64,000 nt of DNA from Paraglaciecola marina (GTDB lineage: Bacteria; Pseudomonadota; Gammaproteobacteria; Enterobacterales; Alteromonadaceae): the NCBI RefSeq assembly GCF_004360155.1, contig NZ_ML178720.1:153078-217077 (forward strand), written 5' to 3'. This document shows, piece by piece, positions 6,658 to 39,641 of this stretch. The notes beneath the pieces are model-generated. The model ran no database searches. It was given only the letters and a program-made list of their open reading frames with translations, and had not been told where the DNA came from. Both the position numbers and the translations under genes were made by a program. Every line of letters starts with the position of its first letter. The first letter of the stretch is position 1.

Positions 6658-7008
6658 CTAGAGGTTAACTTCAGACAAAATAGACGGTGAAATTAAGGCA
6701 AGGACTATAGATACATTATTTTTGTATGCCTCTATATACTCGCTTTCTTGGTCACTATTGAAATGCTTTTCTATAGACCTTTCTTTTGAGGATTTCAGCT
6801 GTTGTAAATACTTAGATATAAACTCCGCTTCATTTAAAGCTCGAGAATCTAGCAACATATTTTCTAAGGCCTGATACTCCCCTTTATCTTCAATCGTCAT
6901 TTCATCAGGGTTATCTAGAGCGACCCTCTCATAAAAATAAAGAGAGTCAATTTTTCTTTGGACAGCATTAGCCAAGTTTCTATACCCAAGAGCTTCTTTA
7001 GCACTCAT
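6658..7008 (-). CDS. Hypothetical protein coupled to parE
   Basis: 116 residues, soluble, highly charged and mostly helical; not recognised. Its ATG follows the parE stop codon with no base between (TAA then ATG), so translation is probably coupled to parE by re-initiation. A link to topoisomerase IV is therefore possible from position but nothing in the sequence demonstrates it. Confidence 0.55.
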   Translation of the reverse strand: MSAKEALGYRNLANAVQRKIDSLYFYERVALDNPDEMTIEDKGEYQALENMLLDSRALNEAEFISKYLQQLKSSKERSIEKHFNSDQESEYIEAYKNNVSIVLALISPSILSEVNL

Positions 7009-8898
7009 TTAAACTTCAGCCATATTACCTTTAGACTCTAACCATTCTTTTCTATCTGGTGCCCGCTTTTTAGCTAATAACATGTCCATAATTTCTAGCA
7101 TTTGCTCACCATCTCCCACAGTAAGCTGCACTAACCTACGAGTGTTAGGGTCCATTGTGGTTTCACGTAATTGCAGAGGATTCATCTCACCCAAACCTTT
7201 AAAGCGCTGTACGTTGACTTTGCCACGCTTTTTCTCGGCAACAATTCGATTTAAAATGCCTTCTTTTTCACCCTCATCTAAGGCGTAATAGACTTCTTTA
7301 CCAATATCGATTCTAAACAAAGGCGGCATGGCCACATATACGTGGCCCGTGTTCACTAAAGTTCTAAAATGCTTAACAAACAAAGCACATAAAAGAGTCG
7401 CTATGTGTAATCCGTCGGAGTCAGCGTCCGCCAAGATACAAATTTTATCGTAACGTAGGCCACTTAAGTCTTCAGAGTCTGGGTCAATCCCTAAGGCAAC
7501 TGAAATATCGTGAATTTCGTTAGATGCCAGAACTTGAGATGAGTCCACTTCCCAGCTGTTCAGAATTTTGCCACGTAAAGGCATGATAGCCTGAAACTCT
7601 CTATCTCTAGCTTGTTTAGCAGAACCACCTGCTGAGTCCCCTTCCACTAAAAATAACTCTGAGCGAGAAGTATCCTGAGTAGAGCAATCTGTTAATTTTC
7701 CAGGCAAAGCTGGGCCTTGGGTGACTTTTTTACGAGCCACTTTTTTACTTGCCCGTAAACGAGACTGGGCATTGTTAATACACATTTCAGCTAATAACTC
7801 AGCCACATCTGTATGCTGATTTAACCACAAGCTAAAGGCGTCCTTTACCACACCCGATACGAAAGCTGCAGCTTGGCGAGACGACAAACGCTCTTTAATT
7901 TGCCCGGCAAATTGAGGGTCTTGCATCTTGGTAGATAACACGTAACTGCAACGATCCCAGATATCTTCTGGGCTCAGTTTTACGCCTCTAGGCATTAAGT
8001 TTCTAAATTCACAAAACTCACGCATAGACTCCAACAAGCCTTGACGTAAACCATTTACGTGAGTACCGCCTTGTGCGGTAGGAATAAGATTCACGTAACT
8101 TTCGGTGATCATCTCACCACCTTCTGGCAGCCACATTACCGCCCAATCAGCGGCTTCAGTATTACCAGAAATAGAACCAACAAATGGCGCATCTTCAGGC
8201 AGGGTGACATATTCTTTTACCGATTGATAAAGGTAATCCCGCAGGCCATCTTCGAAATACCATTCTTTGGTTTCACTAGTGATTTTATTATCAAATCGAA
8301 TTCGTAAGCCTGGACATAGGACCGCTTTAGCCTGCAACACGTGTAGTAGCTTAGAAACCGAAAATTTAGCTGAGTCAAAATATTGCGGGTCTGGCCAAAA
8401 ATGAACTTTAGTACCAGTATTGCGCTTACCACAGGTATCAACTATTTCTAACTCTTGTACTTTATCGCCATTCTCGAACGCAATTTGATGTACATTACCA
8501 TCCCGGCGAATGTTGACTTCAACTCGCTTTGACAAGGCATTCACCACTGAAATACCCACACCGTGCAAACCACCAGAAAACTGGTAGTTCTTGTTAGAAA
8601 ACTTACCACCAGCGTGTAATTTAGTCATAATCAATTCAACACCAGAAATACCTTCTTCTGGGTGAATATCCACAGGCATACCACGACCGTCATCAGTGAC
8701 TTCTAAAGATTGATCGGTATGTAATACAATTTTTATTGAGGTTGCATGGCCACCTAAAGCTTCATCCACACTGTTATCTATCACTTCCTGACTCAAATGG
8801 TTAGGGCGAGTAGTATCTGTGTACATGCCTGGGCGACGTTGCACGGGTTCAAGGCCGTTTAAAACCTCAATGGCTTCTGCGTTATATTGATTTGACAT
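7009..8898 (-). CDS. parE: DNA topoisomerase IV subunit B
   Basis: 629 residues, the usual length for ParE and clearly shorter than GyrB of proteobacteria. It is the ATPase subunit of topoisomerase IV, which decatenates daughter chromosomes with ParC. Visible parts are the GHKL ATPase with the Asn in QEVIDNSVDEAL and the DDGRGMP and GGLHGVGISVVNALS loops, the transducer domain, and the TOPRIM domain with EGDSAGGSAKQARDR and the acidic DADSDG metal site. The gene leads a short minus-strand group; yqiA lies about 100 bp upstream in the same direction, as in Escherichia coli. Confidence 0.97.
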   Translation of the reverse strand: MSNQYNAEAIEVLNGLEPVQRRPGMYTDTTRPNHLSQEVIDNSVDEALGGHATSIKIVLHTDQSLEVTDDGRGMPVDIHPEEGISGVELIMTKLHAGGKFSNKNYQFSGGLHGVGISVVNALSKRVEVNIRRDGNVHQIAFENGDKVQELEIVDTCGKRNTGTKVHFWPDPQYFDSAKFSVSKLLHVLQAKAVLCPGLRIRFDNKITSETKEWYFEDGLRDYLYQSVKEYVTLPEDAPFVGSISGNTEAADWAVMWLPEGGEMITESYVNLIPTAQGGTHVNGLRQGLLESMREFCEFRNLMPRGVKLSPEDIWDRCSYVLSTKMQDPQFAGQIKERLSSRQAAAFVSGVVKDAFSLWLNQHTDVAELLAEMCINNAQSRLRASKKVARKKVTQGPALPGKLTDCSTQDTSRSELFLVEGDSAGGSAKQARDREFQAIMPLRGKILNSWEVDSSQVLASNEIHDISVALGIDPDSEDLSGLRYDKICILADADSDGLHIATLLCALFVKHFRTLVNTGHVYVAMPPLFRIDIGKEVYYALDEGEKEGILNRIVAEKKRGKVNVQRFKGLGEMNPLQLRETTMDPNTRRLVQLTVGDGEQMLEIMDMLLAKKRAPDRKEWLESKGNMAEV

Positions 8899-8998
8899 AT
8901 TTTTTATTCAGAGCTCTTATTATTCGAAATAGCGGATGAAACACTCACGGCTTACACGCGGGCACTTACATGTATACATATGTTATACCAAGCTTCAT

Positions 8999-9577
8999 TT
9001 AGTCTTGCAGTAGAAACCTAAAAATATCTGGTAAGAATCGCTGAAAATTTTGAAAACTATGATCACCACCTTCCTCAATTGTCATTTTACAGCCTTGGTA
9101 TTTCGATTCTGCTTGGCGATAATCTAATGTTTCATCTTTGGTTTGTAGCAGTACCCAATAATTTTCTTTAGCGTGTACATTTTCACAATCTAATGCGACC
9201 AACTCTTCAATGTGTTTCTTCTCAAGTAAAAACTGCTCGCCAGAATTGGGATTTACATGCTCACCTAAATAGCCCAGCAATAGTTCATATGGCCTTACCG
9301 CAGGGTTAACTAACACAGCTTTACCTGAATACTTCTCTCGCATATAGGTCGATAGATATCCACCAAGTGAGCTTCCAATAAAGCGTAGTTTTTTATCAGG
9401 ATACTGCTTAATAATATCTTCTATTATCTTTGCCGCATCTTGCGGGTAGTTTGCTAACTGGGGCACCTCCATATGTAAATCAGGGTAATGCTTTTTTACA
9501 AAATCTAAAGTCTGTGTAGCTTTTAAAGATTGTGGTGAGCTTAAAAAACCATGTAAATATACGACTAAATAATCCAC
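8999..9577 (-). CDS. yqiA: YqiA-like alpha/beta-fold esterase
   Basis: 192 residues, the typical size of this small esterase family. The nucleophile elbow GSSLGGYL, the oxyanion region YLHGFLSSP at the N-terminus and the C-terminal GGDHSF histidine give a complete Ser-Asp-His triad, with TKDETLD as the likely acid-bearing loop. The E. coli homologue hydrolyses short acyl esters; the natural substrate is unknown. It lies 9 bp from cpdA and precedes parE, matching the conserved tolC-parE neighbourhood. Confidence 0.88.
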   Translation of the reverse strand: MDYLVVYLHGFLSSPQSLKATQTLDFVKKHYPDLHMEVPQLANYPQDAAKIIEDIIKQYPDKKLRFIGSSLGGYLSTYMREKYSGKAVLVNPAVRPYELLLGYLGEHVNPNSGEQFLLEKKHIEELVALDCENVHAKENYWVLLQTKDETLDYRQAESKYQGCKMTIEEGGDHSFQNFQRFLPDIFRFLLQD

Positions 9578-9586
9578 TTGTTAAAC

Positions 9587-10330
9587 CTAATTAATGCGTT
9601 TAATTACGTGATTGAACTGAGCATTGTCATCTAATTCAATCACCCGAAATCCCGGCTTTAAGTCACTTACGCCAAAAGATTCTGTATTGGCCCATTGCCA
9701 GCAAGTTGACGGGCAGGCTAAATACAACACGCCATTTTGTAGCGTTTCTATATCACTATGGATATGTCCATATACAACTAGTTTCACGTTTGGGAAAGAC
9801 TCCACTAACTGCGTAAAGTCTTGACGGTTCACCCATTCGTGTTTATCCATCCAACCATTGCAATCAATTGGATGGTGATGAACCGCAATAACATGATACG
9901 TGTCTGCATCGTTTTGCAATTGTTGCTGTAACTCATCGAGCTCTTTCTTGGAAATATTCCCTAACGTACCTTGAAACTGCGTATTGAGTAGATGGACTTT
10001 CCAATGAATATTGCAAAACTCTAGAGGGGAATTCAGCCATAACATGCCTTCAGAAAAAACAATCAGTAAATGCTGAATTGAATCATGATTACCCGGTAAT
10101 ATTCGCAGTTCACACTCTAGGTTCGACGCGGCAAAAAGCTGTTCAAAATGTTGATAACTAGCTTCTGAGGCATCGCCGCTTAAGTCCCCGGTTACCAACA
10201 ACATATCAATTTTGTATGCACTGATTTCGAGCAGTATTGTTTGCAAGCTTTGATAGGGATTTATGTGGTTATAACCGACTTTTTCTTTGTCTGCGAATAA
10301 ATGGCAGTCTGAAATTTGGATGATGTTCAC
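9587..10330 (-). CDS. cpdA: 3',5'-cyclic-AMP phosphodiesterase CpdA
   Basis: 247 residues. A calcineurin-like binuclear metallophosphoesterase that hydrolyses cAMP to AMP and so tunes CRP-dependent regulation. All metal-binding blocks are present in order: ISDCHLF near the N-terminus, VTGDLSGD, LPGNHD, AVHHHP and YGHIHSD. The protein is somewhat shorter than the E. coli enzyme (275 residues) but intact. It is tightly spaced with yqiB (10 bp) and yqiA (9 bp), so all are likely one transcript starting at nudF. Confidence 0.93.
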   Translation of the reverse strand: MNIIQISDCHLFADKEKVGYNHINPYQSLQTILLEISAYKIDMLLVTGDLSGDASEASYQHFEQLFAASNLECELRILPGNHDSIQHLLIVFSEGMLWLNSPLEFCNIHWKVHLLNTQFQGTLGNISKKELDELQQQLQNDADTYHVIAVHHHPIDCNGWMDKHEWVNRQDFTQLVESFPNVKLVVYGHIHSDIETLQNGVLYLACPSTCWQWANTESFGVSDLKPGFRVIELDDNAQFNHVIKRIN

Positions 10331-29970: not shown

Positions 29971-30846
29971 TCAGGCCCACATCACTAATACTGCTGCCGC
30001 AGCAATAAGCAACAGCCCGATAACTTCATGCCTAGCGACCTTATTTTTAAGCCAAAATATAGCAATCAGCATGGTAAACAACACTTCGATCTGGCCCAAG
30101 GTTTTTACATAGGCAACATGATGAAGAGCCATAGCACTAAACCAACAGATAGACCCCAAACAACTCGTCGCACTGGTAGCCAGTGTTTTGCCTGAATTGT
30201 TTTTTAGCGCAATAAAAATAGATCTGTCATTAATGGCGATATAACTGCTCATTAGCAGAGTTTGAATACATAACACCCATAACAACACCCAAGCAGCACT
30301 ATGAGGAAAAGGCACATTTAACATATGACTAGCCTCTCTAACAAACAAAGAGGTTAGCGCAAAACAGGTACCACAAGCCAAACCAATACCTATGGTTTTA
30401 AGGCTAAGCCCACCTTTTTTGCCCCCGCCAGACAATACAAAAACTGCCGCGCCACCCACCAAAATCCCAAGCCAACCAAAAAGGCTCAATTGGCTCCCAA
30501 AAAATAACGTGCCTAACACACCCGCCACTAACGCTTCGCTTTTTGCCAACCCAGCGCCAACAGCAAAATTTTTTTGTTTGAATAAAATGACCATGAAAGA
30601 CGTTGCTGCAATTTGTAGCAAAGACGCAGCCAATACAATCAAGATAAATGCTTGATTAAAGGTAGGGGTGATTTGATCTGATACAGAATAAAGTATTAAC
30701 AAGTAAACCAGTGCAATTGGGGGAGCAAATAAAAAACGGGCTAAGGTCACACCAGATGTACTGACACTAGCACTAAGTTGACTTTGCAATGCATTACGAA
30801 ACGTCTGCATCACAACAGCACCCAAAGTAAAGAATATCCAGGTCAC
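29971..30846 (-). CDS. EamA/DMT-family transporter
   Basis: 291 residues with about ten predicted membrane spans arranged as two five-helix EamA repeats, the drug/metabolite transporter fold. The N-terminus starts directly in a membrane span, with the in-helix sequence TLGAVVMQTFRNALQSQL. The substrate cannot be read from the sequence. The gene is first in a two-gene unit with yigZ. A 169-bp spacer separates it from the TPR gene on the same strand. Confidence 0.85.
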   Translation of the reverse strand: MTWIFFTLGAVVMQTFRNALQSQLSASVSTSGVTLARFLFAPPIALVYLLILYSVSDQITPTFNQAFILIVLAASLLQIAATSFMVILFKQKNFAVGAGLAKSEALVAGVLGTLFFGSQLSLFGWLGILVGGAAVFVLSGGGKKGGLSLKTIGIGLACGTCFALTSLFVREASHMLNVPFPHSAAWVLLWVLCIQTLLMSSYIAINDRSIFIALKNNSGKTLATSATSCLGSICWFSAMALHHVAYVKTLGQIEVLFTMLIAIFWLKNKVARHEVIGLLLIAAAAVLVMWA

Positions 30847-31015: not shown

Positions 31016-32737
31016 TTATCCTTTTAATGCTTTAGTTTTCATAACTCTCTGAAAATCTTTCATCTTAGTTTCTAACTCAAGTGAATCAGCTCCCGAACTC
31101 GACACATTTTTCAATACAAAATTACACGTTCTTAAAACTGAGCGCCACCGAGGATTTTTAGGTAAGGCATTAACACTTACGTAACGCTCCAACGCTCTAG
31201 CCCGAAGTCGACCATCATCCACAGCAACACTCCATAGCTTACTCTTTTGAGCTAACTCCAATTTACTTGTATTAGTTTCGTCCTCCCATACTTGTATAGC
31301 AAGCAACATTAACTCAACTAACTTTAACCTAAGTTCTTCTTCCTGAACTGCATTTTCACCTTCAGAAGATTTATCTACTTCTTCATGCTCTTCTATCAAG
31401 CCAGAATTTTCGTGCTGATTCATTTTCTCTATCGGCGAGGAGGGTTTTATCACGCTACGGCGCTTTAACATATACACTAGAAAGAGACATATTAAAAAAA
31501 GCCCACTAATACAAAATAGATATATCCTTTGGTATAACTGTGAAGGGCCAGTTTTATTTTCTGGCGTAGTGAATAGAAAGTGGCTTTTTAGCCGATTGGT
31601 ATTAAGGTTATTTTTATTTACAAGCTGAGTATTCAAAATGTCAGAATACAACTTCCAATATCGACTGGCGTCTTCAAACTCCTTACTCTCTTCCTTCATT
31701 GATGCAATTTCATTATAAAGCTCCCCAATGAACAATGTATTGTCTGAATCTGCAATAGAAGCTAGAGATTTTTCTAATGCATCACTGGCCTTGTCATTTA
31801 ATCCTTTAGCCTTCCATATTAAGCCCTGAATAAACCATAGTTTTGCGACGGGGCGATCAGATTGAACTAAATTAAAGGTTTGCTTTGCCATATTTAGCCA
31901 TTCTTGAGCCTTTATTGCGGTTAGTTTTGAAACATGCAATTCGGCCAACAATAAGTAGGTATCTCCTTTAAATTTGTAGGCATTTAACGAATTAAAGATA
32001 TCAGCAGCTTGCTCCAACAATTTACTAGCTTGCTCACTATTGCCTGCAAGGGTAAAGGTTCTAGCCAAACTAGATAAGGTATGAGCTGCTTTAAAATGCT
32101 CTCCGGCTTCAGTATGCAATTCAAAGGCTTGCCGATAAGAAACTATGGCCTCGTCATAGGCTTTTTTATCTCGATATATATTACCTAGGTTAGTAAGTAC
32201 AATCGCTTTACCAACAAGATTATCGTTAGCTTTGTGTATATCGTAACTTTTAAGTAACAATTTACTGCTTGTCTCGAAATCACCAAAAAATTGATAAATA
32301 CTAGCGATATCGCTATAACTAATCGCTATGAAGTTGTCATCGGGTATTTGCTTAGCTATTTGTAAGGCTTGATTAAAAGCATCAAACGCTTCTTCGTAAC
32401 GATGCTCATAAAATAAAGTCGCCCCTAACTGGCGATGTATTAGTATGCTTTCATTTTGTAAAGAACTTGGCAGCACCGAGAGTAATTCAGTAAGTATCTC
32501 TCTTGAAGATCCCAAATCACCCGATTTTCGATACAAAATTGAAAGTTGAAGACTACCCGAGACATAAGCTGTAGAGCCCATATCTAACTCTGATATTGCT
32601 TGCTTGCAACTTAATATGGCTTGACTGAACCCAACTTCATCATTTGACGTTTTTTCACATGTTTGTGCATATAACTCAACTTGATAACTCAAATAAAGCA
32701 GGATGATAGTAAGTAATTGTAACTGCCTGTACTGCAT
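31016..32737 (-). CDS. TPR protein with one membrane span and cytoplasmic tail
   Basis: 573 residues. A signal peptide or anchor (residues 5-24, LLTIILLYLSYQVELYAQ) is followed by about eight TPR units (residues 30-385), clearest at IAISYSDIASIYQFFGDFETSSKLLLKSYDI and IVLTNLGNIYRDKKAYDEAIVSYRQAFEL. A membrane span at about 408-430 and a basic stop-transfer follow, then an acidic linker and a 110-residue C-terminal domain with a tryptophan/arginine-rich block (WSVAVDDGRLRARALERY...LPKNPRWRSVLRTCNFVL) seen, to my recollection, in other Alteromonadales TPR proteins. It is divergent from the peptide gene cluster with 375 bp between and is a candidate membrane sensor for it. Confidence 0.65.
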   Translation of the reverse strand: MQYRQLQLLTIILLYLSYQVELYAQTCEKTSNDEVGFSQAILSCKQAISELDMGSTAYVSGSLQLSILYRKSGDLGSSREILTELLSVLPSSLQNESILIHRQLGATLFYEHRYEEAFDAFNQALQIAKQIPDDNFIAISYSDIASIYQFFGDFETSSKLLLKSYDIHKANDNLVGKAIVLTNLGNIYRDKKAYDEAIVSYRQAFELHTEAGEHFKAAHTLSSLARTFTLAGNSEQASKLLEQAADIFNSLNAYKFKGDTYLLLAELHVSKLTAIKAQEWLNMAKQTFNLVQSDRPVAKLWFIQGLIWKAKGLNDKASDALEKSLASIADSDNTLFIGELYNEIASMKEESKEFEDASRYWKLYSDILNTQLVNKNNLNTNRLKSHFLFTTPENKTGPSQLYQRIYLFCISGLFLICLFLVYMLKRRSVIKPSSPIEKMNQHENSGLIEEHEEVDKSSEGENAVQEEELRLKLVELMLLAIQVWEDETNTSKLELAQKSKLWSVAVDDGRLRARALERYVSVNALPKNPRWRSVLRTCNFVLKNVSSSGADSLELETKMKDFQRVMKTKALKG

Positions 32738-33112
32738 ATTATTTCCTTCTATATCCCAAATTATAAGTAAAAAACTGTTAATAACGTTATCAGGCTAAAA
32801 GTGCCAATATGGGCTTTGGTCATCGCCATTACCAACTATTTGGATTTTTAACATAAGTGACTTGGAGTAATTTTTCAACCCTAACAACCTAAACCATCTC
32901 GAATAAAGCACTTGCAGAATAAAAAATAATTACTATAAAACAAAAGCTTACATATCAAACATACCCAAATGCTGCCAGCTATACCCTTCAACTATCCCTT
33001 AAATAACCTTTATTTTTTTATATTCAAAGACAATCATTAGTTCCGAAGATGTTAGATATTTTCTGTCTGAAACATCGAAATAATCAATTTATAATATTTA
33101 AAGGAATCAAAA
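32738..33112. other. Divergent promoter region of the peptide cluster
   Basis: 375 bp, AT-rich, no coding frame seen. It separates the TPR gene from the first precursor gene. The segment TTCAAAGACAATCATTAG at 33023-33040 and AACATCGAA at 33071-33079 have near-copies upstream of the second precursor gene (34061-34075 and 34119-34127), which may mark shared regulation. Confidence 0.35.
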
Positions 33113-33283
33113 ATGAATAAACTAGAGAAAATAAACCACTTGGAAAATGCTCAAATTGAGTGTGATGACAAGAATAATAAATTTGAAATAATTGAAAGCG
33201 CATTACTAGAAAATGTATCAGGAGCAGACATGACAACAAGCATTTGCATGTGTTGGCAATTTTGCGATATGCCGCCTAACTAA
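33113..33283 (+). CDS. Double-glycine-type precursor peptide 1, three-cysteine core
   Basis: 56 residues, below usual gene-calling limits. ATG with ribosome site AAAGGAA 7 nt upstream. The leader carries the double-glycine signal for C39 peptidases: F at -15, I at -12, L at -7, V at -4, G at -2 and A at -1 in FEIIESALLENVSGA (cut after residue 38). The predicted core is DMTTSICMCWQFCDMPPN, 18 residues with three cysteines. Leader similarity to the second peptide and the C39 exporter downstream make coding very likely. The odd cysteine count suggests dimerisation, a free thiol or modification. It could be a microcin-like antibacterial or a signal. Confidence 0.8.
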   Translation: MNKLEKINHLENAQIECDDKNNKFEIIESALLENVSGADMTTSICMCWQFCDMPPN

Positions 33284-34189
33284 ATTAAGTTTCACCCCGT
33301 TCAAATTAAACTAGTATTTATGGCAGCCTTTCCTATTAAGCTGCCTAAATATATTTAATTATTGATGACTTAAACCTAACCTTACCCATTAAGCTACCTC
33401 TCCATTTTACGTCCCCAAGTTACTTTGCTCTGAATAATTCGAAATCTTATTTGTCCTTGAATTAAATCTATAGTCTTTAGGCACACTATTACTGCTTATG
33501 GCACCAGTTCATAGCCAAGAATAAAAAGCTATTACTTGTATACCCTATATCTAACCAGGCAAACTCGCAGAGAGAGCTCCGCAAAAAGAAACAGGCCTAA
33601 GTGGAAATACTCATCTTGTGTAAACCAATGGCAAGACTAGTCTAAGAGACATATTTCTTTTGGTAAAAACCTTTATGAAAACACCATCAACCAAGTATTT
33701 TTATAAACGTACGACTCTCGCAAATGTAAAAAATGTGCGTATTAAACTGAAAACATTGCTTTAAAAAATAAAACACACCTTTCAGACAACTCAGAAACAC
33801 CCCCAATAAATTTAAAATTAAAACATATACCCAAATTTACTGAAGTTTTTTAAGTAATGACTCCCGAGAAAATAAGTAAAATTAAAAAATGCAGTTGAAA
33901 TGCCTACTTTTATTTAAATAAAACCAACAAAACCTAATAAAAAAGACAGGGAAAACTCGGGTACACATCGATAAAAAAACATTAAATAACAGTTAGATAA
34001 ACCGAATTCATACCTGTAAATACGACCTTTCATATTCCACTATACATCCCTTCTTTTCCCTTCAAATATCATTAGATTTGACCGTAAATATAACCACCTG
34101 CTGAGAAAGAAGAAACATAACATCGAATCTAATTTCTACTTCAGGAAAATTAAACACAACATTTTAACTAACTTTATATAGGTAACATT
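33284..34189. other. Long AT-rich spacer between the two precursor genes
   Basis: 906 bp with no frame above about 20 codons that looks coding; I searched for a third VSGA-type leader and saw none. It may hold a promoter for the second precursor and the export operon, and possibly remnants of duplicated precursors. CCTATTAAGCTGCCT at 33331-33345 recurs imperfectly as CCCATTAAGCTACCT about 55 bp later, the only internal duplication noticed. Confidence 0.4.
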
Positions 34190-34327
34190 ATGAACACTTT
34201 AAACAACGAAAAATTTGATCTAATCGAAGATGCTTTATTAGAAAACGTATCTGGTGCAGCACAAGAAATCGCTTTCTGTGTTTCTTTCTGTATCGAAATT
34301 TGTTTCTCAATTTGCTTTAACGACTAA
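34190..34327 (+). CDS. Double-glycine-type precursor peptide 2, CxxxC-repeat core
   Basis: 45 residues. The leader (FDLIEDALLENVSGA, residues 9-23) matches the first precursor at 11 of 15 positions and has the full double-glycine pattern for C39 cleavage after Ala23. The predicted 22-residue core contains AFCVSFCIEICFSICF with cysteines at 30, 34, 38 and 42, exactly every fourth residue, between bulky hydrophobics, then ends FND. On a helix the four thiols would lie on one face. There are no basic residues in the core, unlike most cationic bacteriocins. It is directly followed by a hairpin terminator and the export operon. Confidence 0.85.
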   Translation: MNTLNNEKFDLIEDALLENVSGAAQEIAFCVSFCIEICFSICFND

Positions 34328-34340
34328 TAAATAATTACAT

Positions 34341-34376
34341 GCCCAGTTACTTAAGTGCTGGGCGTATTTTTTAATA
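34341..34376 (+). terminator. Terminator/attenuator between precursor and export genes
   Basis: GCCCAG, an 11-base loop and CTGGGC followed by GTATTTTTT. It stands between the short precursor gene and the next gene of the same strand, the usual position of a leaky terminator that gives more precursor than exporter mRNA. Confidence 0.7.
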
Positions 34377-34387
34377 GGAGATAAATA

Positions 34388-34942
34388 ATGACTATGCAAA
34401 CAACATTAGAAGATGTCATTTCTTATACAAATGATGATGTAATTGACCGCTTTATAAAAATTTATGGAATAGAAAAAGACCAAGCAACAATCATTTTTAA
34501 CAGCACTAAAAAATGGATATGGCTTTGCTACTACCGCAGAAAAGTGAACGCAGAGCAAAACTTAGTAATTGACTCACCTTTAGTAATAATCGATGAAATG
34601 TGGCATAACTTTGTGTTGTTCACTAAAGGCTATAGTGAGTTTTGTAAACGCTTCTTTGGCCACTACATGCACCACGCTCCGACTTCTTCGGCCATGCAAA
34701 AAGAAGCAATGGAAACCTTTCGTTCCCTGTCACCAGATGCTATTCAAGAAAAGCTAATAGAGCAAAAGCGTTGGCAATATGAATTTGTTTATGACCACCT
34801 AGGTAAGGACGAATTCTTACTTTGGTACAAACAATATCCTAAGCAATATTCTCCACTATCTTTAGCAAAATTAGCTTATGAAAATGAACAAAAGAAGCTC
34901 ATTGATAGAGAAAAAATGATGCAACAAAAAGATGCTGCTTAA
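34388..34942 (+). CDS. GRDP-like (glycine-rich-domain-protein-like) family protein
   Basis: 184 residues, soluble, no signal peptide. Start supported by GGAG 7 nt upstream. The central block DEMWHNFVLFTKGYSEFCKRFFGHYMHHAPT (residues 69-99) carries the pattern I associate with the DUF1399/GRDP-like family: acidic residue, W-H, Y..FC, FG and a His pair before Pro. His73, His92, His95 and His96 could bind metal. Position as first gene after the precursor and before the adaptor and exporter makes it part of the peptide pathway: immunity, tailoring enzyme or chaperone are all possible. Family assignment is from memory of the motif and moderate in certainty. Confidence 0.55.
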   Translation: MTMQTTLEDVISYTNDDVIDRFIKIYGIEKDQATIIFNSTKKWIWLCYYRRKVNAEQNLVIDSPLVIIDEMWHNFVLFTKGYSEFCKRFFGHYMHHAPTSSAMQKEAMETFRSLSPDAIQEKLIEQKRWQYEFVYDHLGKDEFLLWYKQYPKQYSPLSLAKLAYENEQKKLIDREKMMQQKDAA

Positions 34943-34982
34943 TCGCCACTTTTGAAAAGTAACAGTACAAGAGAATGCCAAT

Positions 34983-36242
34983 ATGACGAAACCAAAAGAC
35001 AACCAAACATTATTTCGAGAGGAAGTGCTAAACAAAAAACATAAGGAGAACTTTGGTTCTGTTTTGCTCAAGCAACCTAGGGAATATGTATTTTTCGCGT
35101 TAATAATGTTTGTTTTAGTAGCGTTAGCTGTGAGTCTAATCATAACTGGCACCTATACTCGTTACGCGGAAGTGTTCGGTATGATTACTGTCGATAAAGG
35201 CATTGTAAAAATTACCGCAAGAGCTGAAGGTGAGATTGTTGAGCAACTTAAATCTGAGGGGCAAACAGTCCAAAAAGGTGAATTGCTATATATTATTTCT
35301 ACAGCCAGGCATAGCTCCGCCAAATCCAATCTTGACCAAAGTATTTTAGAACAGCAGATTGCACTTCAAGGCTCAATGGAGCGAGATATATCAGTAGCTA
35401 GAAAGGCATTTGAAATAGAGCAGCAATCTTTACAACAAAATATTTCAGCTAAGAGGTTGGAATTACAGCAACTGTCAGAACAAATGGATATTTATGATTC
35501 TAGGGTATCGATATCTCAGGCAAACCTGGAACGTAATAAGTCTCTATTTACCAAAAAACATATCAATCAAGTTCAATTTGATAAAGTCATGGAAGAGCAC
35601 TTATCTCTACTAACCAACCAAGGCGAACTTGAGACTCGTTTCAGTAAGGTAGACGCCTCAATTAAAGAGCAGGAATTTACTTACAGCCTAAAGCCTCAAG
35701 AATTTAACGAAAAAATAAATAGACTAGATCGCAACCTATTAGAGAACAAACAGAGAATATCAGAGCTTTCTTCTAATATTGATTATCGAATTTTCTCACC
35801 CGTCGATGGAATAATCGGAACTAAGCTGTCCCATACTGGCAGCTATGTACAAAGAGGCACATCTTTACTAACAATTATTCCCACAGATTCGCTGTTACAA
35901 GCAGAGCTATATGTACCAGCTAAATCTATTGGCTTTATTCAAGAAGGGCAAAGTGTATCAATGCGTTATAGCGCCTTCCCATATCAACAGTTTGGCTTAC
36001 AAGATGGGCGAGTTAAAAGTGTCTCTAAGGTTATTTCATTACCAGAAGAAATCGCCACTAGCGTTAGTTTATCGGGGGCAGTATACAAAGTAATTGTTGA
36101 TCTATCGTCACAGTATGTCCATGCAATGGGAGGGCAACGTTCCATACAAGTAGGCATGGAACTAGATGCCAGTATTGCATTAGAACATAGAACCCTTTTT
36201 GAGTGGATTTTAGAACCAATTTATAGCCTAAAGGACAAGTAA
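34983..36242 (+). CDS. HlyD/CvaA-type peptide secretion adaptor
   Basis: 419 residues, close to CvaA (about 413). A short cytoplasmic N-terminus, one membrane span (about 36-58, YVFFALIMFVLVALAVSLIITG), a lipoyl half (GIVKITARAEGEIVEQLKSEGQTVQKGELLYII), a long coiled-coil hairpin (residues 105-255) and a second lipoyl half (DYRIFSPVDGIIGTKLSHTGSYV) define a membrane fusion protein of type I export. It links the inner-membrane ABC exporter to an outer-membrane duct, probably TolC. Its stop is one base before the ABC gene start. Confidence 0.92.
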   Translation: MTKPKDNQTLFREEVLNKKHKENFGSVLLKQPREYVFFALIMFVLVALAVSLIITGTYTRYAEVFGMITVDKGIVKITARAEGEIVEQLKSEGQTVQKGELLYIISTARHSSAKSNLDQSILEQQIALQGSMERDISVARKAFEIEQQSLQQNISAKRLELQQLSEQMDIYDSRVSISQANLERNKSLFTKKHINQVQFDKVMEEHLSLLTNQGELETRFSKVDASIKEQEFTYSLKPQEFNEKINRLDRNLLENKQRISELSSNIDYRIFSPVDGIIGTKLSHTGSYVQRGTSLLTIIPTDSLLQAELYVPAKSIGFIQEGQSVSMRYSAFPYQQFGLQDGRVKSVSKVISLPEEIATSVSLSGAVYKVIVDLSSQYVHAMGGQRSIQVGMELDASIALEHRTLFEWILEPIYSLKDK

Positions 36243-36243
36243 A

Positions 36244-38415
36244 ATGACGTCACTTGTGGAACAACTGAACTTCTATGGTAATAAGCGATTACCAATTATT
36301 CAACAAACTGAATCAGCTGAATGTGGGCTAGCTTGCATGGCGATGGTTGCTAGCTATTATGGGCACAAAACCAACTTGAATATGCTAAGACGTCAACATC
36401 AAGTATCGCTAAAAGGCTCGACACTAAAAGGCTTAACTGAACTAGCCTCAAAATTAGGCTTAAGCTACCGTGCTATTAAATGCGACGTTGAAATGATAAA
36501 AAACTTGGCTACACCATGTATCCTGCATTGGAATATGAATCATTTTGTTGTGCTAAAAAAAGTCAATAAAAATAGTATAACTATTCATGACCCAGCACTA
36601 GGTGAAAGAAAGTTGTCATATACTCAGATATCCGAGAGTTTCACAGGAGTAGCTTTAGAATTATCACCAAGCAATAGTTTTGAAAAAAAATCAGAGCCCG
36701 AAAAAGCTAAATTTTCTAGTTTTTGGTCAGACATTAGCGGCCTTAAAAAATCACTATTTACTATTTTTACATTTTCAATGCTATTGCAGGTTTTTATTTT
36801 AGCGACACCACTTTATATGCAAATAGTGGTAGATGATGTGCTGTTATCAAATGATTACTCCTTGCTAAATATCTTAGCAATGGGCTTTATGATCATACTT
36901 TTATTGCAGGCCGCTAGCACAGCAATGCGTTCTTTAATTATAATGTTGTTAGGGAATCAACTGTCATTACAAATGAATGCCAACCTAGTATCCCATCTTT
37001 TTAAGCTGCCCATTGACTATTTTGAGAAACGTCACATAGGTGATGTTGTTTCAAGGTTTCGCTCTCTAGAAGCATTGAAAAACCTCCTAACATCTACACT
37101 AATTGAAAGTCTAGTAGATGGAATTGTAGTCATAGGGCTACTAGTAATGATGTACATATATAGTATTGAATTGCTCATTGTTGTCTCTCTCGCATCTCTT
37201 TTATATCTCTTGGTAAGGGTAACTATGTATAGTAAATTCAGAGATGTTAGTAGGGAAAACATAGTAGCTGGAGCATCTAAAGACTCTAATTTCATGGAGT
37301 CGGTAAGAGGCATGCAAAGTATAAAATTATTCTCAAAAGAAGCCGATAGACTCAATTTATTTAACAACTTCAATGTAGACACTGCCAATACTTCTATCAA
37401 AGTTGAACGACTTAAGGTGGTATTTACATGGAGTAGCATGCTTATTTTTGGAATAGAGAATATTTTTGTTATTTACCTAGGAGCAGAGATGGTAATGGAA
37501 AATATTCTATCTATTGGAATGTTATTGGCTTTCGTCGCATACAAAATGCAATTTGAAAGCAAAGTTAACAATTTAATCGATAAGTATATAGAGTTCAAAA
37601 TGAGTGCTCTCCACTTGGAGCGATTAGCAGATATTGTGATGGAAGACCAAGAACAACACCTTGGAATACTTGACGAACAGCTAAAAGTTGAAGGCGGGAT
37701 AACAGTAAAAGGAGTCAATTTTAGCTACTCAGAAGAAGAGGATTCAATACTAAAAGATATAGATTTTTCCATAAAACCTGGTGAGTCAGTGGCTATTGTT
37801 GGCCCCTCTGGATGCGGTAAAAGCAGCTTGATAAAAGTAATGCTAGGCTTACTTCAGCCAAATCAAGGTCAAATATTATTAGATGGGCGAGATATTCGCA
37901 AAGTAGGGTTACTGAATTATCGCGCAAATGTCGCTAGTGTCATGCAAAATGACCGCCTATTATCGGGAACAATTTTCGAAAACATCACCTTTTTCTCTCC
38001 TGAGGCCGACAGTCAATGGGTTGAAGAGTGCGCTCGAACTTCTGGGATCCATCAAGATATTTTAAAACTACCTATGGGCTACCAATCACTTATTGGAGAT
38101 ATGGGCAGCTCTTTATCTGGGGGCCAAATTCAAAGACTATTACTTGCTCGAGCTTTATATCGTAAACCAAAAGTTCTATTTTTAGATGAGGCAACCTCTA
38201 GCCTAGATTTACGTCTTGAAAAGCATGTCAATGACGCTATCAAAGACATGAATATTACGCGCATTATCATTGCCCATAGACCTCAAAGTATTATGTCAGC
38301 AGACCGTATTATTAAGTTAGGAAATGGCCAATGCGTAGAACTATCAAAAGAAGAGTTTACCAAAAACAAACGCCCCGAGGCTTTATCATTATTGAAAGTA
38401 CAACAAGCTAACTAG
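36244..38415 (+). CDS. Peptidase-containing ABC exporter (C39, CvaB-like)
   Basis: 723 residues. The N-terminal C39 peptidase is complete: Gln21, catalytic Cys27 in TESAECGLACMAM, His100 in NMNHFVVL and Asp116 in IHDPALGE. Six membrane spans (about 165-425) follow, then the ATPase with Walker A GPSGCGKSS, signature LSGGQIQRL, Walker B VLFLDEATSSLD and H-loop IIAHRPQ. Such proteins cut the leader after a double-glycine motif and export the core in one step. The two VSGA peptides upstream are the obvious substrates. The operon ends in a 21-bp perfect hairpin. Confidence 0.95.
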   Translation: MTSLVEQLNFYGNKRLPIIQQTESAECGLACMAMVASYYGHKTNLNMLRRQHQVSLKGSTLKGLTELASKLGLSYRAIKCDVEMIKNLATPCILHWNMNHFVVLKKVNKNSITIHDPALGERKLSYTQISESFTGVALELSPSNSFEKKSEPEKAKFSSFWSDISGLKKSLFTIFTFSMLLQVFILATPLYMQIVVDDVLLSNDYSLLNILAMGFMIILLLQAASTAMRSLIIMLLGNQLSLQMNANLVSHLFKLPIDYFEKRHIGDVVSRFRSLEALKNLLTSTLIESLVDGIVVIGLLVMMYIYSIELLIVVSLASLLYLLVRVTMYSKFRDVSRENIVAGASKDSNFMESVRGMQSIKLFSKEADRLNLFNNFNVDTANTSIKVERLKVVFTWSSMLIFGIENIFVIYLGAEMVMENILSIGMLLAFVAYKMQFESKVNNLIDKYIEFKMSALHLERLADIVMEDQEQHLGILDEQLKVEGGITVKGVNFSYSEEEDSILKDIDFSIKPGESVAIVGPSGCGKSSLIKVMLGLLQPNQGQILLDGRDIRKVGLLNYRANVASVMQNDRLLSGTIFENITFFSPEADSQWVEECARTSGIHQDILKLPMGYQSLIGDMGSSLSGGQIQRLLLARALYRKPKVLFLDEATSSLDLRLEKHVNDAIKDMNITRIIIAHRPQSIMSADRIIKLGNGQCVELSKEEFTKNKRPEALSLLKVQQAN

Positions 38416-38430
38416 TCAAGGCTACTAAAA

Positions 38431-38476
38431 TAAACTCACACTTGATGATATCTCTATATCATCAAGTGTGAGTTTA
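38431..38476. terminator. 21-bp perfect hairpin closing the export operon
   Basis: The left arm begins TAAACTCACACTTGATG and is followed by loop CTCT and its exact complement. It separates the exporter gene from a convergent alcohol dehydrogenase gene. T-rich flanks are weak, so termination is inferred from position. Confidence 0.65.
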
Positions 38477-38489
38477 AGCCGCTTATGCG

Positions 38490-39641
38490 TTACAACGCTA
38501 TTTCTAAAACCTTGCGGGAATCAGCTAATTCAACCGTGCCGTGCTCGCCAAGCTTGGTCATACCGTGAGCTTCTAAACTAGCCATAACCGTATCAATATC
38601 TGATTCAGTTAAATCTACTTCTGATAAAGATATAGGGGTTTTCATATGAGCAAAAAATTGTTTAGTTTTTGCGATGACAGCATCAATACGTTCATCTTCA
38701 GACCCTTCAGTGATGTTCCAAACGCGCTCTGCATATTGTAGCAATTTAGCTTTTTTGGTTACTCGGCAAACTTCCATAATTGCCGGTAGTATTATGGTTA
38801 AGCTGCGGCCATGGTCTACACCAAAGTTACCGGTAAGCTCATGCCCAATCATATGTGTACCCCAATCTTGCGGAACACCGACCCCAATCAAACCACTTAA
38901 GGCTTGAGTGGCTGCCCACATCACATTGGTACGGGCTTCAAGGTCTTGTAAGTTGACCATCAACTTGGGGCCTTCTTCAAGAAGAGTCAGCAAAATACCT
39001 TCTGCAAAGCGGTCTTGAATTTTGCCATTTACCGGGTATGTCAAGTACTGCTCCATTACGTGGACAAAGGCATCAACTACACCGTTTGAAGTTTGACGTT
39101 CTGATAAACTTAATGTGGTTTGCGGATCAAGCACTGCAAATTGTGGGCGTACTAACGGATTCATAAAGGGTAGTTTTTCTTTACCACGGGTCACAACCGC
39201 GCCTGTGTTAGTTTCTGAACCCGTTGCTGGCAAAGTTAAGATACAACCAAGTGGCAATGCTGATTCAATCTTGCCTTGTTTAGCTAATATATCCCAAGCT
39301 TCTGGTCCTTTAAAATTCACAGCAGCGGCAATGAATTTAGTACCATCTACTACTGAGCCGCCACCTACAGCTAACAGGTAATCAAAACCCTCAGCGCGAA
39401 CACGCTCAACAGCCTTCATCAAAGTATCGTATTGAGGGTTAGGCTCAATACCTGAGAACTCATCCCAGTTATGCTCAGCTAATGCTGCTACAACTTGGTC
39501 ATATACGCCGTTACCTTTGATTGAGCCGCCACCATAAGTAACTAAAATTTTGGCTTCTTTTGGAATGCTAGTGGCTATGGCGCTAATTTGCCCTTCGCCA
39601 AAATGGATTTCGGTAGTATTTTGATATGTAAATTTATTCAT
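38490..39641 (-). CDS. yqhD: Iron-type alcohol dehydrogenase, YqhD-like aldehyde reductase
   Basis: 383 residues. Group III metal-dependent alcohol dehydrogenase: GGGSVVDGTKF for the NADPH-binding loop, VVDAFVHVMEQYL with Asp and His metal ligands, and GHELTGNFGVDHGRSL with the two further histidines. N-terminal TYQNTTEIHFGEGQI is typical of YqhD, an NADPH-dependent reductase of many short aldehydes and glyoxal-like compounds, often tied to lipid peroxide stress. Alternative: butanol dehydrogenase of the same family. Monocistronic in appearance. Confidence 0.88.
   Translation of the reverse strand: MNKFTYQNTTEIHFGEGQISAIATSIPKEAKILVTYGGGSIKGNGVYDQVVAALAEHNWDEFSGIEPNPQYDTLMKAVERVRAEGFDYLLAVGGGSVVDGTKFIAAAVNFKGPEAWDILAKQGKIESALPLGCILTLPATGSETNTGAVVTRGKEKLPFMNPLVRPQFAVLDPQTTLSLSERQTSNGVVDAFVHVMEQYLTYPVNGKIQDRFAEGILLTLLEEGPKLMVNLQDLEARTNVMWAATQALSGLIGVGVPQDWGTHMIGHELTGNFGVDHGRSLTIILPAIMEVCRVTKKAKLLQYAERVWNITEGSEDERIDAVIAKTKQFFAHMKTPISLSEVDLTESDIDTVMASLEAHGMTKLGEHGTVELADSRKVLEIAL

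Follow-up and report, generated by a model that had tools for sequence, protein, structure and literature searches.

We analyzed a stretch of 64,000 nucleotides from Paraglaciecola marina (positions 153078–217077 of contig NZ_ML178720.1, assembly GCF_004360155.1; genome of 4.64 Mb in 75 contigs), hereafter the window, and found in it a peptide export island of six open reading frames (ORFs). On the plus strand these encode, in this order, two short precursors (P1 and P2), a protein similar to glycine-rich domain-containing proteins (GRDP-like protein), a HlyD-type adaptor, and an ATP-binding cassette (ABC) exporter with a C39 peptidase domain, whereas a TPR gene lies divergently on the minus strand (table 1). 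We consider, with a probability of about 0.5, that the island belongs to a widespread and apparently undescribed class resembling ribosomally synthesized and post-translationally modified peptides (RiPPs), in which the GRDP-like protein would recognize the leader and act, perhaps as a metalloenzyme, on cysteine (Cys) residues of the core before C39 cleavage and export. As part of the same reading, a GRDP-like protein would recur in this class together with a short precursor that has late Cys and a leader motif of hydrophobic, helix-like character (LI..L or a near-variant). Syntenic islands in relatives, the association with short ORFs, the enrichment of LI..L, Cys-rich tails of distant homologs, tailoring-type neighbors, residue conservation in 68 sequences, and a second GRDP gene with a third precursor type are the basis of this reading.

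Precursors and Export Genes

An earlier note on this DNA had described two short genes, with 56 and 45 codons and a leader of the double-glycine (GG) type, upstream of a GRDP-like protein, a CvaA-like adaptor, and a C39 exporter, and all of these frames were found as described. P1 is MNKLEKINHLENAQIECDDKNNKFEIIESALLENVSGA / DMTTSICMCWQFCDMPPN and P2 is MNTLNNEKFDLIEDALLENVSGA / AQEIAFCVSFCIEICFSICFND, where the slash marks the expected C39 cut. Their leaders (residues 1–38 and 1–23, respectively) end in KFEIIESALLENVSGA and KFDLIEDALLENVSGA, both with ALLENVSGA as the last residues. Cleavage after GA by the C39 peptidase would release a P1 core with three Cys and a P2 core with four Cys in the spacing C-x3-C-x3-C-x3-C; unmodified and reduced, the predicted cores have monoisotopic masses of 2121.780 and 2501.078. 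An encoded precursor with leader and core, as expected of a RiPP, is supported by sequence and conservation, the cleavage being a prediction. Neither P1 nor P2 matched a Pfam or NCBIfam model at E ≤ 0.1, with no dedicated microcin database searched. The earlier note regarded another substrate of the exporter elsewhere in the genome as evidence against its proposal; when the genome was searched with P2 (E ≤ 10), the only matches were P2 itself and P1.

In Pfam, the exporter contains Peptidase_C39 (E = 1.2e-39), ABC membrane, and ATPase domains. Its C39 domain was aligned with the AMS/PCAT protease 6mpz (E = 1.3e-24), C27, H100, and D116 falling on Cys, His, and Asp, respectively, which we take to be the positions of the C39 catalytic triad; domains and residues together are those of a C39 exporter. 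Among the matches listed in an exporter search of the same genome (3 of 11), only the island exporter spans the C39 domain. The adaptor matched PF13437 (E = 1.6e-16).

Both proteins also resemble components of NHLP export. The best NCBIfam match of the exporter is TIGR03796 (E = 6.3e-150; 500.7 bits against a curated cut-off of 853.3), and TIGR03794 is the second match of the adaptor (E = 1.6e-18; 66.8 bits, cut-off 156.2) after TIGR01843 (131.6 bits, cut-off 208.65). Assignment to the NHLP bacteriocin system was rejected because the TIGR03796 and TIGR03794 scores lie under the curated cut-offs; P1 and P2 have no NCBIfam match.

Pfam and NCBIfam reported no known class-defining RiPP enzyme in the six island ORFs, and readings as a lanthipeptide, MNIO, or radical-SAM system were discarded in the absence of any such domain there. 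The earlier statement that no known modification enzyme is present thus holds for the six ORFs scanned, but it overlooks the GRDP-like protein, which widely accompanies Cys peptides and is the best candidate modifier.

Conservation of the Island in Relatives

Full islands (TPR, P1-like, P2-like, GRDP-like, HlyD, and C39-ABC genes) were detected in Alteromonas and Shewanella, namely in A. ponticola (L083; exporter 76% identical), S. nanhaiensis (L085; 68%), S. hanedai (L086; 68%), and Shewanella sp. NIFS-20-20 (L084, judged to be the same locus as L063/G107; 67%). A P1-like frame is present in five of the six islands containing the TPR gene (the window and L083–L087), and P2-like frames with the exact C-x3-C spacing likewise occur in five. 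The small frames are thus kept with the exporter, on which the earlier note had made its proposal depend. The P1-like cores of the window, L083, L063/L084, L085, and L086 have IC-x2-(W/H)-QFC-(D/E)-x-(P/D)P in common, and C-x3-C-x3-C-x3-C is present in all 13 copies of the P2-like core across five islands. The island of S. corallii (L087) has the TPR gene and related GG-leader precursors with other cores, one with C-x4-C-x4-C-x3-C and one in a 50-amino acid GG-leader ORF.

Nei-Gojobori ratios of nonsynonymous to synonymous differences (pN/pS) between S. nanhaiensis and S. hanedai were 0.05–0.06 for P2 and 0.29 for P1; between the window and A. ponticola they were 0.32 and 0.43, respectively, with pS of about 0.8 and thus near saturation. 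Recurrence in syntenic islands, low pN/pS, and the P2 search of the genome indicate that both small frames are real genes. Judged from sequence, the predicted precursors and their leader, the C39 exporter, and the adaptor are one conserved unit in Alteromonas and Shewanella, which agrees with the self-consistent set proposed earlier.

In S. nanhaiensis and S. hanedai, a third precursor type (FELIEEQLL..I.GGR...) was found immediately 5' of a second GRDP gene (L085, 7601–8362; L086, 7594–8356), an arrangement that would fit a separate precursor for each GRDP copy. Within the genus, a full-length RiPP-type GRDP match occurs in one of 22 genomes, the source genome. Four further genomes have partial GRDP matches in frames of 220–268 amino acids, and the three of these that were read (G003, G004, and G005) all have Cys-rich tails.

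Association of GRDP-Like Genes with Short Cys-Containing ORFs

A collection of 84,980 species was scanned with seven GRDP-like proteins, and the best 80 of 135 encoding stretches yielded 79 loci (L083–L161). These are labeled Pseudomonadota, Bacteroidota, Cyanobacteriota, Myxococcota, Bdellovibrionota, and Planctomycetota, several being metagenome bins. In most of them the GRDP gene has a neighboring short ORF with a charged start, an L-I-x-x-L-like motif, and Cys near the end, such as MTQVSKEALIAQIVAESLVSSSHCSNCGHCTSSL (L121), MNSTTTKNNSKANTEKEQLIQRIIKKNNTLQPTCMTLCASN (L132), and ...CSGCSCSSRCGGKCAQPPCAYCG (L091); the shortest example, MKNLIQELVENTLSTTCCKTQF (L146), has 22 residues.

Two rules were used for counting. 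Under the strict rule, an ORF has 28–110 amino acids, lies on the same strand no more than 450 bp away, carries two or more late Cys but no Cys among its first 12 residues, and has the leader motif, whereas the looser rule admits ORFs from 20 amino acids with late Cys, on the same strand and within the same distance, and requires no leader motif. Control genes came from the same loci, at distances of more than 1.5 kb from the GRDP gene. The strict rule was satisfied at 52 of the 79 GRDP loci versus 22 of the 505 control genes, and the looser rule at 58 versus 68. When proteins were thinned by single linkage at 60% identity, a qualifying ORF by the looser rule remained beside 35 of 51 cluster representatives. 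The partnership of the GRDP-like protein with Cys-bearing short ORFs is therefore well supported by the neighborhoods of its homologs, which the earlier note had suggested examining. Candidates seen by eye in loci that miss the strict rule (L094, L095, L107, L111, L115, L127, and L148) stand outside these counts.

The LI..L motif was present in 30 of 68 qualifying ORFs versus 6 of 76 control ORFs (P-value = 6e-7, Fisher's test), and a looser leader motif in 61 and 24, respectively. By BLAST, a C39 exporter was detected in 17 of the 79 loci, some of which end at contig ends, so the precursor/GRDP system is not confined to C39 islands. LI..L was found in 28 of the 62 loci without a C39 exporter versus 2 of the 17 with one. 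Recognition by C39 is thus not its explanation in the former, which points to the shared protein, GRDP.

Fold and Conserved Residues of the GRDP-Like Protein

The GRDP-like protein of the window matched no Pfam or NCBIfam model, and the gathering score of PF07173 was not reached. The sole Pfam trace of this family was found in one homolog (L065, E = 0.8), and assignment from Pfam was abandoned in favor of the fold. An AlphaFold2 model built from 68 relatives is all-helical (pLDDT 96.6, pTM 0.90). Neither Foldseek (best E = 2.5, probability 0.12) nor a sequence search (best E = 0.25) gave a usable match in PDB. The first Foldseek match among viral models was a Harvfovirus "glycine-rich domain-containing protein-like" protein (E = 3.7e-3, probability 1.00, TM 0.52/0.67), and by this match the modeled protein shares the fold of PF07173 GRDP-like proteins. 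The name given in the earlier note is hence supported by fold, but not by Pfam or NCBIfam.

D69, W72, H73, F75, Y82, H96, and G139 are invariant in all 68 relatives, and C86 (67/68), P98 (64/68), and H95 (61/68) are nearly so. In the model, two successive helices carry the pairs D69/H73 and Y82/C86, with a spacing of four residues in each pair, and the loop that follows contains H95-H96. This placement makes it plausible that the D69...P98 stretch forms a metal or catalytic site. Searches recovered homologs of any type in 30 of the 394 genomes covered from the order and, with a profile, in 33 of 369 from the class.

Among the literature titles available to us, none for PF07173/DUF1399 concerned bacterial peptides, and those matching the full family name together with bacteria and peptides were on plants and nematodes. 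Nothing in this material tied GRDP proteins to RiPPs or bacteriocins, which is weak evidence of novelty, since subscription journals are mostly uncovered by it.

A broader view is that the GRDP-like domain founds a new all-helical family of peptide-modifying metalloenzymes, with a RiPP class in several phyla that ranges from 22-residue precursors to enzyme-fused cores and includes E. coli plasmids. We put this forward tentatively, as less likely than not. If it were true, the chemistry on Cys/Gly-rich tails would be an ancestral function of the uncharacterized GRDP family, perhaps including its eukaryotic members.

Fused Cys-Rich Tails and E. coli Plasmids

From the order, class, and genus searches, 48 distant homologs were retained as those fitting a motif regular expression among 56 loci (L037–L060 and L163–L194). 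At least three Cys are present in the last 35 residues of 28 of them, for example in the tails GCGGGCGGD, CEGHACHAPSACACRSPGACK, and DCWHDCEDRCWHAC; the last (L189) has the same C-x3-C-x3-C-x3-C spacing as P2. Eight of the 20 tail-less distant homologs have an adjoining qualifying ORF, such as ...TCMSNCSGNCQS (L181) and ...ACNGKCSGGVCKS (L179). These fusions hint that the GRDP domain may work with Cys-rich segments.

Of 127 proteins, 6 have both a tail and a neighboring ORF, 25 a tail only, 66 an ORF only, and 30 neither (P-value = 2e-6, Fisher's test), and the 6 of 31 tailed proteins with an ORF are near the background of 68/505. On a tree of 128 rows, the tail label needs seven changes, two of which are forced by well-supported branches; L089 is absent from this tree and hence from the relatedness-aware pairing. 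Tail/neighbor exclusion was dropped as a statistical test because the relatedness-aware check has no power, and it is a suggestive pattern only.

Among 41 plasmid records with a matching gene, 25 are from E. coli. The gene was found in 36 of 5,426 complete E. coli genomes, and all 40 places lie on plasmids. In L217 (6857–7540, minus strand) and L218 (4896–5594, plus strand), a GRDP-like protein of 227 or 232 amino acids, annotated merely as hypothetical, has VCGCSGKGCGAGCSCNSR at its C-terminus. An ABC exporter and a gene with a cupin domain come next, the JmjC_2 call for the latter having been made on the Kosakonia homolog. CGCSGKGCGAGCSCNSR is also present in Kosakonia (L157) and in a beta-proteobacterial bin (L136, with further sequence after it), and Azotobacter (L151) has a variant of it. 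Such tail-fused versions on small E. coli plasmids would represent a minimal system. Plasmid pHUSEC41-3 is listed in a table of PMC5831011.

Other Genes in GRDP Loci

Neighboring genes were counted by clustering, with the window included, and domains were called on one representative per cluster. The recurring element across loci is the precursor with the GRDP-like protein, whereas exporters and accessory genes vary. ABC genes were found in 27 loci, sensor kinases of a 1101-amino acid type in 22, HlyD genes in 20, TonB-receptor-like genes (identified by eye) in 10, S9/alpha-beta hydrolases in 9, and DUF4374-like lipoproteins in 8. TauD-like, cupin/JmjC, and MvdD-like ATP-grasp genes (the last with a Pfam match below its cut-off) occur in four loci each, and a methyltransferase with a P450 in six near-identical Pseudoalteromonas loci.

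In this respect some GRDP loci are similar to graspetides and to P450- and Fe/2OG-tailored RiPPs, in which ATP-grasp, P450, TauD-like, or JmjC enzymes act; unlike in these, the tailoring genes are present in subsets of loci only, and none is among the six island ORFs. The Pseudoalteromonas loci (L104, L108, L109, L110, L113, and L114, at about 7000–9750) contain a GRDP gene, a ...RFCGCVIC... peptide, the methyltransferase, and the P450, and are likely to represent a more heavily tailored relative. In L092 (7474–8753), the GRDP gene is followed by two consecutive genes, at least one of which belongs to the TauD-like cluster, and then by a probable MATE-type transporter (by eye).

Proposed Mechanism and Alternative Interpretations

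In the RiPP-like system that we propose, P1 and P2 would be synthesized first, and the GRDP-like protein may dock on their leader and act on the core Cys through its Asp/His/Tyr/Cys/His-His site, which perhaps holds a metal. The C39 domain would then cut after VSGA, and the core would be exported by the ABC exporter and HlyD adaptor together with an outer-membrane channel encoded elsewhere, with expression possibly controlled by the TPR protein. The peptides may serve in competition, signaling, or metal capture. MNIO (DUF692) and methanobactin systems offer a parallel, as there, too, a putative metalloprotein lies next to a short precursor with Cys at its C-terminal end; in contrast to MNIO proteins, the GRDP model is all-helical and without PDB match, and no DUF692 was reported in the six ORFs.

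Several points weigh against this reading. We infer the Cys chemistry of the GRDP-like protein, its putative site is read solely from sequence and helix positions, and the role of the TPR protein is guessed from its position. The precursor rules were formulated with the loci already known (the controls were scored by the same rules), and 27 of the 79 loci fail the strict rule and 21 the looser one. Single-linkage thinning at 45% leaves a qualifying ORF in 6 of 12 representatives, and the relatedness-aware pairing of tails and ORFs gave two independent pairs on supported branches (seven on all), without significance. Finally, the small size, conservation, and helical fold of the protein would also suit a chaperone, a metal carrier, or an immunity protein.

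The first two of these roles form a serious, though unlikely, alternative, in which the GRDP-like protein is non-catalytic and escorts the precursor as a leader-binding protein, chaperone, or metal loader that keeps the Cys reduced or metallated until export. It is indeed a small single-domain helical protein with no recognized enzyme fold, and the Cys/Gly-rich tails of its distant homologs resemble, by eye, metal-binding tails. Metal traffic would also suit some Bacteroidota loci (L121, 6825–14442; L140, 6800–14449; L154, 442–10174), which combine a Cys peptide and GRDP with TonB-receptor-like, DUF4374-like, and ABC-2 (DUF3526-type) genes and could be a metal-capture peptide system. However, an invariant Asp/Trp/His/Tyr/His set in 68 of 68 relatives exceeds the usual needs of binding alone.

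Class II microcin islands, such as that of microcin V, have GG-type leaders, CvaA/CvaB-type export, and a small gene beside the precursors. The window island shares their layout, with short GG-type precursors, a C39 ABC exporter, and a HlyD-type adaptor, and its six ORFs include no known modification enzyme. The GRDP-like protein might then confer immunity to a two-peptide bacteriocin of class II microcin-like type, the cores of which would carry disulfide bonds alone, a reading that we regard as distinctly improbable. The cores have 18 and 22 amino acids (with three and four Cys, respectively). In a further difference from class II microcins, the precursor/GRDP pair also occurs among the loci in which no C39 exporter was found (62 of the 79). 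Immunity proteins usually track one core, whereas this one family is found beside very different cores under six phylum labels, with Cys-rich tails fused in some homologs and tailoring-type enzymes sometimes adjoining.

That the GRDP-like protein is unrelated to peptides, the islands being plain exporters of unmodified peptides in a coincidental neighborhood, is hardly credible: many homologs of the order, class, and genus lie away from such islands and the 45% thinning leaves half of the representatives, but the excess over control genes under both rules (52/79 vs. 22/505 and 58/79 vs. 68/505) and after 60% thinning (35/51) speaks against it.

If the GRDP-like protein modifies or loads Cys peptides, this would be the first bacterial function for a family of unknown function, and it would provide a genome-mining handle on very short, easily missed precursors.

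Layout and Flanks of the Island

Table 1. Features of the island and its flanks in the window
Feature	Position	Strand	Basis or remark
EamA-type gene (name by eye), left flank	29971–30846	−	
TPR protein, 573 aa	31016–32737	−	Divergent from P1; homologs in L083–L087
Precursor P1, 56 aa	33113–33283	+	ORF list and conserved P1-like frames, pN/pS
Predicted P1 core, 18 aa	33227–33280	+	Putative cut after GA, by analogy with C39 exporters
Precursor P2, 45 aa	34190–34327	+	ORF list and conserved P2-like frames, pN/pS
Predicted P2 core, 22 aa	34259–34324	+	Putative cut after GA
GRDP-like protein, 184 aa; putative Cys-peptide maturation/handling	34388–34942	+	Homolog searches, model, fold match
Conserved D69-x2-W72-H73-...-Y82-x3-C86-...-H95-H96-x-P98 stretch, putative metal/catalytic site	34592–34681	+	Conservation in 68 sequences
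HlyD/CvaA-type periplasmic adaptor, 419 aa	34983–36242	+	Pfam, NCBIfam, synteny
C39-peptidase ABC exporter, 723 aa, C27/H100/D116	36244–38415	+	Pfam, NCBIfam, alignment to 6mpz
Terminator-like hairpin, 20 pairs, then T-rich run; island end	38431–38476	.	Hairpin scan
Iron-type alcohol dehydrogenase (name by eye), right flank	38490–39641	−	

By eye, the TPR protein has an apparent signal peptide, one membrane helix, and a conserved C-terminal RARA.ERY.S.N.LP.NPRWRSV.RTCN. Its homologs cluster in 5 of the 79 GRDP loci, and it is probably a sensor or regulator.

None of 20 loci (flanks inspected up to 1.5 kb) contained the dehydrogenase of the right flank, whose best match in relatives sits elsewhere where coordinates were compared by eye, and no clean empty site was established in the genus. 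The EamA-type gene of the left flank was matched in 22 of 22 genus genomes (45–100% identical), and the gene next to it (YigZ-type, by eye) adjoins it in 10 of 19 other loci checked. A promoter scan gave 22 sites versus 26.4 expected, and an Rfam scan returned nothing at the gathering threshold. The P1–P2 spacer (33284–34189, 906 bp) contains no plausible plus-strand gene, and in L083 the P1-like frame and the first P2-like frame are separated by 674 bp.

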